Part shown: one piece after another, positions 35,320-60,777 of the stretch
How the letters are laid out: the number at the start of each line of letters is the position of its first letter
Numbering within the stretch: the stretch's first letter is position 1
Assembly (NCBI RefSeq): GCF_002849715.1
Contig: NZ_CP018863.1
Span: forward strand, 2,170,001-2,234,000
Direction: 5' to 3'
DNA from: Arthrobacter crystallopoietes
GTDB taxonomy: Bacteria; Actinomycetota; Actinomycetes; Actinomycetales; Micrococcaceae
DNA: 64,000 nt
Translations under genes and position numbers: made by a program
Notes under the pieces: model-generated
Told to the model about the DNA's origin: nothing
The model's input: the letters and a program-made list of their open reading frames with translations, nothing else
Databases searched by the model: none

Positions 35320-35348
35320 TTGACAGGGACCAGCAGTGCGGGTAAATT
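35320..35348 (+). promoter_or_regulatory. rRNA promoter P2 of copy 1
   Basis: Consensus TTGACA (35320-35325) and TAAATT (35343-35348) have a 17-bp spacer. The 6545-bp repeat begins at 35339, so the -35 box is unique to copy 1 while the -10 box is shared by all copies. Confidence 0.8.
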
Positions 35349-35411
35349 TGAAAAGTTGCTCCGGAGCGATGGAGGGCCTTGAAGAAGGGTCCGACTGGTG
35401 CCGGGTGCTCC

Positions 35412-35434
35412 TGTTGTTTGAGAACTCAATAGTG
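35412..35434 (+). promoter_or_regulatory. rRNA leader antitermination-like element (boxA region)
   Basis: TGTTGTTTGAGAACT followed by CAATAGTG resembles the antitermination element that precedes 16S in mycobacteria. A near-copy occurs in the 16S-23S spacer (37459-37480). It is repeated in copies 2-4 at intervals of 6545 bp. Confidence 0.6.
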
Positions 35435-35590
35435 TGCCAAGTTTGTTGATACCAATTATTTTATTGGTTGAATTATTGTCGTGGGGCACCGCCTCCGTGG
35501 TGTGCCGCGATGTTTTTTAGCCTGGTTTGAATTTAGTGCAGTGCTGGTTCCCGTTTTCCCGGGGGCCGGTGTTGTGTCTGTTAGTAAACA

Positions 35591-37114
35591 TTAACGGAGA
35601 GTTTGATCCTGGCTCAGGACGAACGCTGGCGGCGTGCTTAACACATGCAAGTCGAACGATGATCCGGTGCTTGCACCGGGGATTAGTGGCGAACGGGTGA
35701 GTAACACGTGAGTAACCTGCCCTTGACTCTGGGATAAGCCTGGGAAACCGGGTCTAATACCGGATACGACCTGTCACCGCATGGTGGTGGGTGGAAAGAT
35801 TTTTTGGTTTTGGATGGACTCGCGGCCTATCAGCTTGTTGGTGAGGTAATGGCTCACCAAGGCGACGACGGGTAGCCGGCCTGAGAGGGTGACCGGCCAC
35901 ACTGGGACTGAGACACGGCCCAGACTCCTACGGGAGGCAGCAGTGGGGAATATTGCACAATGGGCGAAAGCCTGATGCAGCGACGCCGCGTGAGGGATGA
36001 CGGCCTTCGGGTTGTAAACCTCTTTCAGCAGGGAAGAAGCGAAAGTGACGGTACCTGCAGAAGAAGCGCCGGCTAACTACGTGCCAGCAGCCGCGGTAAT
36101 ACGTAGGGCGCAAGCGTTGTCCGGAATTATTGGGCGTAAAGAGCTCGTAGGCGGTTTGTCGCGTCTGCTGTGAAAGCCCGGGGCTCAACCCCGGGTCTGC
36201 AGTGGGTACGGGCAGACTAGAGTGCAGTAGGGGAGACTGGAATTCCTGGTGTAGCGGTGAAATGCGCAGATATCAGGAGGAACACCGATGGCGAAGGCAG
36301 GTCTCTGGGCTGTAACTGACGCTGAGGAGCGAAAGCATGGGGAGCGAACAGGATTAGATACCCTGGTAGTCCATGCCGTAAACGTTGGGCACTAGGTGTG
36401 GGGGACATTCCACGTTTTCCGCGCCGTAGCTAACGCATTAAGTGCCCCGCCTGGGGAGTACGGCCGCAAGGCTAAAACTCAAAGGAATTGACGGGGGCCC
36501 GCACAAGCGGCGGAGCATGCGGATTAATTCGATGCAACGCGAAGAACCTTACCAAGGCTTGACATGGACCGGACCGCCGCAGAAATGCGGTTTCCCTTCG
36601 GGGCTGGTTTACAGGTGGTGCATGGTTGTCGTCAGCTCGTGTCGTGAGATGTTGGGTTAAGTCCCGCAACGAGCGCAACCCTCGTTCTATGTTGCCAGCG
36701 CGTTATGGCGGGGACTCATAGGAGACTGCCGGGGTCAACTCGGAGGAAGGTGGGGACGACGTCAAATCATCATGCCCCTTATGTCTTGGGCTTCACGCAT
36801 GCTACAATGGCCGGTACAAAGGGTTGCGATACTGTGAGGTGGAGCTAATCCCAAAAAGCCGGTCTCAGTTCGGATTGAGGTCTGCAACTCGACCTCATGA
36901 AGTCGGAGTCGCTAGTAATCGCAGATCAGCAACGCTGCGGTGAATACGTTCCCGGGCCTTGTACACACCGCCCGTCAAGTCACGAAAGTTGGTAACACCC
37001 GAAGCCGGTGGCCTAACCCCTTGTGGGAGGGAGCCGTCGAAGGTGGGACCGGCGATTGGGACTAAGTCGTAACAAGGTAGCCGTACCGGAAGGTGCGGCT
37101 GGATCACCTCCTTT
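35591..37114 (+). rRNA. rrs: 16S ribosomal RNA, copy 1
   Basis: The gene runs from 7 nt before AGAGTTTGATCCTGGCTC to the anti-Shine-Dalgarno end GGATCACCTCCTTT, about 1524 nt. Universal sites are present: GTGCCAGCAGCCGCGGTAA (530 loop), ATTAGATACCCTGGTAG and GTACACACCGCCCGTC. The exact ends are set by comparison with E. coli and could shift by a few bases. The sequence type is Micrococcaceae. It is the only copy with a consensus TTGACA promoter. Reading frames within it are not genes. Confidence 0.98.
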
Positions 37115-37575
37115 CTAAGGAGCGCCTCAGACTCGCAGGGCCTTCCCAAGTGTTGGTTGTGCGGTTTGCAGGAGAGCCCATTGCGCAGGCGTTTGTTCTG
37201 CGGTGGGTGCTCGAGGGTGGAATATCAACGGATAGATGGTCTTTTGGCGGTTTCCATGCCAGTACGGTGTCCCCTTTGCGGGGGTGCCTGGAACGTGTGG
37301 GGGTTGTCCGGGGGGTTGTTGTTTGGCACACTGTTGGGTCCTGAGGCAACAGGGACCGGTTCGTGAATGGGCCGGTGTTTGTTTGTTTCTGGTTTCCTGC
37401 GCAGTCCTTATCCGGGCCACGGTTTATCCGTGGTGCGGGGATGGGTGCGACGGGGTTGTTGTTTGAGAACTACATAGTGGACGCGAGCATCTTATAAAGA
37501 AGCAATTTTGATGAACCTGGATCTGTTTTGGATCTGTGGTTCTCTCGATATTAAATGCTGATTTTGATCTTTTGT
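37115..37575 (+). other. 16S-23S internal transcribed spacer, copy 1
   Basis: These 461 nt contain no tRNA gene, as usual for Actinobacteria. They include TTGTTTGAGAACT (37459-37471), a near-copy of the leader antitermination element. T at 37277 differs from the C found in copies 2-4. Confidence 0.9.
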
Positions 37576-60200: not shown

Positions 60201-60351
60201 TAAGCGGGAAGCCGGCTTCAAGATGAGATTTCCATACACCCTCGAGGTGTGGGAGGCCCCCAGCCAGACCACTGGGTTGATAGGCCGGATGTGGAAGCAG
60301 GGACTAAAGACCTGTGAAGCTGACCGGTACTAATAGGCCGATAACTTACAC
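57212..60351 (+). rRNA. rrl: 23S ribosomal RNA, copy 4
   Basis: Same as the other copies as read; shifted by 6546 bp because of the inserted T in the spacer. The 3' end is approximate. Confidence 0.97.
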
Positions 60352-60565
60352 CACACACTTCCCTGGCCGTCGAACCGACTTCAAACGGTTCCACGGCAAT
60401 ACACAGGGGAAGGAAAAGATACTTGCATCGCGTCCACTATGTGGTTCCCGGACAACAAACGTCCCAGGGAACACCACAATTGCATACAGTCCAAGAATGA
60501 ACTGATGTAACCGAAGGTTTCACCCCTTCCGTCCGCCCGCGCGGGCCGGAACCGGGGTGGCAAGG

Positions 60566-60683
60566 GTTACGGCGGTCATAGCGTGGGGGAAACGCCCGGT
60601 CCCATTCCGAACCCGGAAGCTAAGACCCACAGCGCCGATGGTACTGCACCCGGGAGGGTGTGGGAGAGTAGGTCACCGCCGGA
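60566..60683 (+). rRNA. rrf: 5S ribosomal RNA, copy 4
   Basis: Same as the other copies. It is the last gene of the array. Confidence 0.96.
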
Positions 60684-60695
60684 CATCTTTTGAGC

Positions 60696-60730
60696 GTGAA
60701 GGGCTCCACCATGACGGTGGAGCCCTTCAC
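60696..60730 (+). terminator. Hairpin after 5S, copy 4 (end of the array)
   Basis: Same stem as after copies 1-3. Identity to the other units ends 9 nt later at 60739, where the single-copy sequence CGACAAATGG begins. Confidence 0.8.
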
Positions 60731-60777
60731 CCATTTAAGCGACAAATGGAGCGGGTGGACCCCGTTAGGCTTGGGGT

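Follow-up and report, generated by a model that had tools for sequence, protein, structure and literature searches.

A head-to-tail array of ribosomal RNA operons at the glgB site of Arthrobacter crystallopoietes and of a second species of the genus

Bacterial ribosomal RNA (rrn) operons are generally dispersed, and eukaryotic rDNA consists of head-to-tail units with a homogenised interior and a more divergent edge unit. Loss and amplification of rrn operons have been studied in B. subtilis. The published cases of tandem rrn operons that we met are, as far as the accessible parts of these papers describe them, pairs or triples, and are partly discussed as a problem of assembly. B. subtilis has one two-unit and one three-unit tandem set, which are problematic for assemblers and the likeliest to be lost by recombination (PMC8156514). 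A tandem duplication of rRNA1 is described in S. iniae QMA0248/89353, with single and tandem forms mixed in one culture and a leftover rrn contig in its PacBio assembly (PMC9176272), and Persicobacter carries two to three tandem rrn operons on plasmids as its sole rrn source (PMC10645730). Two of the estimated four rrn operons of Arthrobacter sp. AFG7.2 stand in tandem with a beta-galactosidase gene between them (PMC5854774), a tandem rRNA-tRNA operon is named in S. pyogenes (PMC11737162), and tandem operons have been inferred in V. alginolyticus (PMC10956519).

Here we describe a chromosomal rrn array of Arthrobacter crystallopoietes, for which no description was found in the accessible parts of the open-access literature. 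As in B. subtilis, the operons stand head to tail on the chromosome, but the array has four, five or more units joined by one fixed spacer, and it accounts for most of the chromosome-placed rrn copies. With S. iniae it shares a chromosomal tandem rrn repeat and a stray rrn contig in the assembly; the S. iniae repeat, however, has two copies only and includes tRNA genes, whereas the repeat described here is common to two species. The operons of Persicobacter are likewise in tandem but lie on a plasmid, whereas the present array is chromosomal and beside glgB. AFG7.2 belongs to the same family and also has tandem rrn, but only a pair, separated by the beta-galactosidase gene, in a draft genome for which coverage served to estimate the number of operons. 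With its head-to-tail order, uniform interior and divergent edge unit the array appears to work like eukaryotic rDNA arrays, unlike which it has the bacterial operon order and few units. Tandem rrn operons as a kind are already known; new are the length of the array, its uniformity, its presence in two species and a separate conserved promoter-like block at the end of the spacer, as well as the position of rrn operons next to glgB in 40 of 53 sampled Micrococcaceae.

The genome (5.03 Mb) is assembled in three contigs, and the window, by which we mean the whole 64-kb stretch of DNA analysed, comprises bases 2170001-2234000 of contig C1 (4,762,081 bp); coordinates are those of the window unless a contig is named. 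The four complete 16S-23S-5S operons that the earlier note had placed head to tail at 35339-60739, with a period of 6545 bp, were recovered by Rfam and by self-comparison; Rfam finds SSU, LSU and 5S genes four times each, always as full-length matches to the model and on the + strand. The array is without tRNA, the sole tRNA of the window lying at 249-322, and the locus is a chromosomal tandem of rrn operons in the sense of at least two complete operons on the same strand with no recognised protein gene between them. Unit 1 (35339..41103; 16S 35591-37114, 23S 37576-40718, 5S 40932-41048) has ancestral alleles at 37277 (T) and 40896 (C) and is followed by spacer 1 (41104..41883, 780 bp, delimited by self-comparison), unit 2 (41884..47648; 16S 42136-43659, 23S 44121-47263, 5S 47477-47593), spacer 2 (47649..48428), unit 3 (48429..54193; 16S 48681-50204, 23S 50666-53808, 5S 54022-54138), spacer 3 (54194..54973) and unit 4 (54974..60739; 16S 55226-56749, 23S 57212-60354, 5S 60568-60684), all on the + strand. 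The three spacers are mutually identical, as are units 2 and 3. At a shift of 6545 the sequence is identical to itself from 35339 to 50521 (partner up to 57066) apart from two single-base differences of unit 1 (37277 and 40896), and at a shift of 6546 identity carries on to 54193 (partner 60739); the shift changes beyond 50521 because of a single additional T in unit 4 near 57066. From one unit start to the next the distance is 6545 in all three cases, with the inner features of unit 4 past the extra T offset by 1. The edges of the repeat are sharp, on the left at 35339 in unit 1 and on the right at TTTAAG ending each unit (41103, 47648, 54193 and 60739), and the 780-bp spacer stands 3' of units 1-3 with other sequence 3' of unit 4. 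The layout is thus the [rrn-spacer]x3-rrn of the earlier note, with the spacer present n-1 times here and in the second species introduced below. For 25 kb of near identity, chance is no issue.

Single-copy sequence lies on either side of the array, as the earlier note had also stated and as self-comparison and the flanking genes bear out. On the left stands glgB (31328..35140, + strand; Pfam/NCBIfam), coding for a maltokinase-GlgB fusion of 1270 aa, and on the right a gene for an AHSA1/SRPBCC-domain protein (60778..61260, + strand; Pfam PF08327), followed by one for a GlcD-like FAD-linked oxidase (61382..62761, + strand; assigned by Pfam, with NCBIfam glcD below its cut-off). The identity of this oxidase to its counterpart is 97% for Arthrobacter sp. 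VKM Ac-2550, 96% for Arthrobacter sp. SF27 and 86% for A. crystallopoietes BAB-32, which points to the crystallopoietes group, today classed as Crystallibacter (Micrococcaceae). Contig C1 holds these glgB and AHSA1 flanks and dnaA as well, which places the array in the chromosome between single-copy genes. One further rrn operon stands alone at C1:3663172 and is 99.95% identical to the array unit over 5712 bp, so that the array holds four of the five chromosome-placed operons.

Counting the operons at the glgB-SRPBCC junction of relatives, a check proposed in the earlier note, gave five with the same flanks in another species of the genus (G007, assembled in one contig), spaced at 6548-6549, plus one operon alone, which makes five of six in the array. 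The site is the same, with a left flank 94% and a right flank 91% identical and a glgB product 97% identical to that of A. crystallopoietes. The four spacers of G007 measure 793 bp and are mutually identical, and they are 87% identical to (about 13% different from) the A. crystallopoietes spacer. Apart from gaps, the two species differ by 2 substitutions in the 16S, 2 in the 23S, none in the 5S, 19 in ITS1, 21 in ITS2 and 78 in the spacer. Spacers are thus identical within each genome (3/3 and 4/4) and only 87% identical between species, the pattern of concerted evolution.

Variants between the units are few. At unit position 1939, T is found in unit 1, in the single operon and in the collapsed operons of two further genomes of the genus (G003 and G004), and C in units 2-4 and in four units of the unplaced contig C2 discussed below. 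At unit position 5558, C is found in unit 1, in all five array units and the single operon of G007, and in G003 and G004, and T in units 2-4, in the readable C2 units and in the organism's own single operon. Derived alleles thus appear to have spread through the interior of the array with edge unit 1 lagging behind, and one allele seems to have reached the distant operon or to have come from it. This edge and interior pattern is as expected of exchange within the array, the numbers being small. The G007 array is less tidy, with an indel at unit position 118 common to units 1 and 3 only, a patchwork. Each species might instead have duplicated an ancestral pair independently and recently, without continuing homogenisation, which would also yield identical units within and divergent spacers between species, and few variants are available for telling the two apart. 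We consider such independent duplication unlikely, as the derived alleles of units 2-4 against the ancestral unit 1 point to exchange among the copies, and so do the near identity of the distant single operon and the derived allele that it shares. What we regard as very probable is a genuine chromosomal rrn array in which recombination between operons expands, contracts and homogenises the repeat and whose interior units appear to be transcription units of their own.

The same alleles bear on the possibility, raised in the earlier note, that an assembly error multiplied the unit. Only units 1 and 4 would then be real neighbours, units 2 and 3 having been added by an assembler circling the repeat; these two units are identical, so that one could have been added or dropped, and the assembler left unplaced a separate noisy contig, C2, that holds the repeat alone. 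Even this account, which we hold to be highly improbable, needs a tandem pair with its spacer, and it meets the one-contig genome of G007 with five operons at the same site; among the relatives' assemblies the array is present there and unreadable in the eight other genomes of the genus. Because G007 has five units at this site and unit 1 keeps its ancestral alleles, the array is unlikely to be a fiction of the assembly; its exact length is less secure. The contig C2 (25,865 bp) consists of this repeat end to end on the minus strand, in the order part unit, three whole units, part unit, and has four spacers against three in the chromosomal array; the placed number of four is for this reason an undercount more probably than an overcount, the assembly data calling for additional copies instead of fewer. 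Along the contig its parts are 98.5, 99.0, 99.7, 99.5 and 99.7% identical to the unit (BLAST), with 19, 62, 20, 35 and 13 inserted or deleted bases (global alignment), and mismatches number one in all by global alignment and nine by BLAST, nearly all differences being indels, from which we infer a thinly covered, unpolished long-read contig.

In the sequenced culture the array may be longer than four units or vary between cells, with C2 as the remainder, an account that is compatible with a genuine recombining array and to which we give an even chance. C2 has parts of five operons, four spacers and no unique flank; its units carry the interior alleles at unit position 1939 in 4/4 and at 5558 in the four that are readable there, and the T insertion of unit 4 is found in 0/4, so that no single stretch of the placed array fits it. 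The S. iniae culture mixed single and tandem rrn1 (PMC9176272). On the other hand, C2 is unanchored and rich in indels (98.5% to 99.7% identity by part) and may be a chimera of overlapping reads, and the unit-4 insertion may itself be an error. C2 cannot fix the number of units, since it is all repeat with no unique ends and the assembler could have miscounted it; the four of the array is not a secure number, and sequence alone cannot give the true count. What is observed is a copy number of four in one species and five in the other, and four spacers in C2 with no unique anchor, C2 being the sole hint of the variation among cells that the earlier note had suggested. That C2 is an extrachromosomal rDNA circle or an rrn plasmid alongside the chromosomal array is scarcely credible: it is a separate contig close to four periods in length (25,865 vs 26,180), and rrn plasmids with tandem operons exist in Persicobacter (PMC10645730), but the contig is repeat over all its 25,865 bp and therefore has no rep gene or any other gene for replication next to its operons, its two ends fail to join (unit position 5273 to 4984, which leaves it about 290 bp shorter than four units), and its errors are densest toward one end, as would be expected of thinly covered contig ends. 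The array of the window itself is chromosomal.

Within the genome the spacer occurs only in the array copies and in C2, apart from a 28-bp piece where the single operon ends. Its candidacy as a gene was rejected, since its three overlapping ORFs (173-231 aa) match no Pfam family at E 0.001 and many indels separate the spacers of the two species. Between A. crystallopoietes and G007 the last 207 bp of the spacer (41677..41883, + strand, repeated at +6545 and +13090) differ by 5 substitutions, whereas the first 573 bp have 73 substitutions and 41 gapped columns (5/207 vs 73/559 ungapped columns substituted, Fisher p 2.7e-6); conservation of the spacer end was not significantly higher than that of the unit-1 flank (12/198 substituted, p 0.08). 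The conserved end contains a weak promoter-like TTGCGG-17-TAATGT (41688-41716, + strand; TTGCAG in G007) and a second site, TTGCGA-17-TAAATT (41865-41893, + strand; -10 TAACTT in G007), whose -10 lies in the next unit. Unit 1 is preceded by TTGACA-17-TAAATT (35320..35348, + strand), with the -35 in the single-copy flank and the -10 inside the repeat, and has another promoter-like site, TTTACA-17-TAGAGT; the distant single operon shows the same TTGACA-17-TAAATT. All of these are consensus resemblances picked up by a loose pattern without chance control, the unit-1 site by the consensus scan only. Unit 1 and the single operon have TTGACA at -35 and the interior units TTGCGA because the boundary of the repeat cuts the promoter-like site between -35 and -10. 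The promoter scan called no + strand promoter for an interior unit, as the TTGCGA/TAAATT site has 8/12 matches at a threshold of 9 and the site upstream fewer. Downstream of the unit-1 5S is a 15-bp hairpin (41060..41094, + strand), which recurs in the same sequence after units 2-4 (e.g., 60696-60730) and folds at -33 kcal/mol (z -6.0) after unit 1 and at -33.8 (z -7.1) after unit 4; it is terminator-like yet has no T run and was not called by the terminator scan. With a hairpin at its end and a conserved promoter-like block before it, each interior unit appears to be a transcription unit of its own.

The full-length spacer was found in two of ten genomes of the genus, those of A. crystallopoietes and G007, and the other matches are pieces of only 37-76 bp; the eight genomes in question comprise seven drafts with rrn collapsed or missing and one, G002, with single operons at two places. 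In these eight, either the rrn repeat follows glgB (G008) or the contig stops no more than about 450 bp past it, which is what an rrn operon in this position would lead to, and operon number is unreadable in the drafts because contigs break at or in the operon. As far as the drafts tell, the absence of the spacer from them speaks against a great age of the array. G002 was rejected as an example of an ancestral state with one operon: glgB is missing to the left of its operon on the AHSA1 side, and the contig that carries glgB stops 446 bp past that gene, so that G002 proves neither a single nor a tandem state. The arrangement there (G002:C1:2797078 and G002:C4; loci L034 and L138) may stem from a misjoin, from an additional operon at some distance or from a rearrangement that went through rrn. 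At locus L012 (14146-14887), to the right of a single operon and thus downstream of it, several offset and overlapping matches to the G007 counterpart suggest a diverged local tandem repeat. The sequence upstream of the FAD-oxidase, looked at for rrn in 48 of 80 named loci, was set aside, since it holds a whole or partial 5S in 19 of the 48 and 16S or 23S in none and is uninformative on copy number.

To place the site in the family, positions of 16S genes were combined with those of GlgB in 56 genomes, 53 of them Micrococcaceae, a run being operons at steps under 15 kb. This sample consists of 27 of 29 genomes picked for many 16S copies (G046 and G145 left out), six others, the genome itself and 22 genomes with several 16S on few contigs among the matches listed; partly chosen for high counts, it is biased and no census. 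An rrn operon lies within 0.8 kb after GlgB in 40 of the 53 sampled Micrococcaceae (among the matches listed); eight of the remaining 13 have no GlgB at the cut-off and five only a relative of 49-51% identity that is not next to rrn. The three sampled genomes of other families have GlgB with no rrn beside it. Among the 40, the run after GlgB numbers one operon in 27 (all 22 of genus label g9, 3 of g33 and one each of g2 and g14), two in 7, three in 4, four in 1 and five in 1, runs of two to five thus being present in 13 genomes of four genera (g1, g38, g45 and g46), with the longest run of the sample in the present genus. In g38, g45 and g46 operons stand in a row on the same strand at the same glgB site, but these runs have two to three units at longer spacing (6.7-10.9 kb), and some may hold genes between the operons, since their steps are longer (7-11 kb). 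Three near-identical units follow GlgB directly in G118 and G311, at spacings of 6737 and 6969-6970, respectively, and an AHSA1-like gene (39% identical) closes the array of G118. In G268 and G297 the sequence retrieved on either side of a triple lacks GlgB, and each of these genomes has another run after GlgB. With its glgB-linked operons and runs, the site can be regarded as an old rrn site at which operon runs recur, and the general dispersal of bacterial operons assumed in the earlier note holds in general but has to admit the tandem rrn operons described in several bacteria and frequent in the Micrococcaceae scored here.

Several rrn loci of the sample were odd in their own right. In G268 three operons stand after glgB (C1:6700, 13694 and 21962), a fourth (4319383) would be 9.8 kb away were the contig of 4,322,479 bp a circle, and another triple is found at 551904-565376. 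Locus L041 (NZ_CP013748.1, 12394 bp), the 'plasmid' of Pseudarthrobacter sulfonivorans Ar51, consists of one complete rrn operon and part of another, separated by YciI and methyltransferase genes. Because its circular joint runs from the 5S into the interior of a 16S, the record has the look of a misjoined contig with an rrn pair and not of a plasmid. The Rfam match to a 16S gene of G029 (C10:3709-5141) is broken into four successive pieces, and in G338 (C25:4969/5076) and G377 (C1:5314/5386) the pattern of the 16S start is found two times at a distance of about 0.1 kb, perhaps through assembly errors.

Taken together, an ancestral rrn operon downstream of glgB probably gave rise to a neighbouring pair with a short spacer free of any recognised gene, and recombination between the long identical operons, by unequal exchange between sister chromosomes, intrachromosomal deletion and gene conversion, would then have lengthened the array to four, five or more units, keeping spacers and operons near-identical within a genome while spacers diverge between species; each interior unit would have its own promoter-like block in the spacer and a hairpin at its end. 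The unequal crossing-over proposed in the earlier note is supported by the n-1 layout, the five units of G007, the pairs and triples at the glgB site and the alleles, and recombination would be the motor. In A. crystallopoietes dnaA lies at C1:1548852 (+) and the array starts 656 kb further, about 14% of the contig, and in G007 dnaA lies at 922282 (+) with the array 591 kb further, again about 14%, in both on the same strand; the array would be origin-proximal and transcribed with the fork if the origin sits at dnaA. It probably sets rRNA dosage, as it holds four of five (in G007 five of six) chromosome-placed operons at about 14% of the contig from dnaA on the same strand. A further-reaching possibility, which we hold to be less likely than not, is that the array is a bacterial counterpart of rDNA, a self-homogenising rrn array at a glgB-linked site widespread in the family. 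Its length would vary within populations and so tune the dosage of rRNA, and its interior operons would depend on a conserved promoter specific to the array (-35 TTGCGA) and unlike the one that serves the edge unit or the operon standing alone. Were this true, growth of the array would shift the regulation of rRNA transcription as well as the number of operons. Such an array, four, five or more units long, common to two species and evolving in concert, would offer a small tractable model for the uniformity of rDNA and for rRNA gene number, and rrn copy numbers taken from assemblies of Micrococcaceae may be wrong, which affects corrections of abundance based on 16S.
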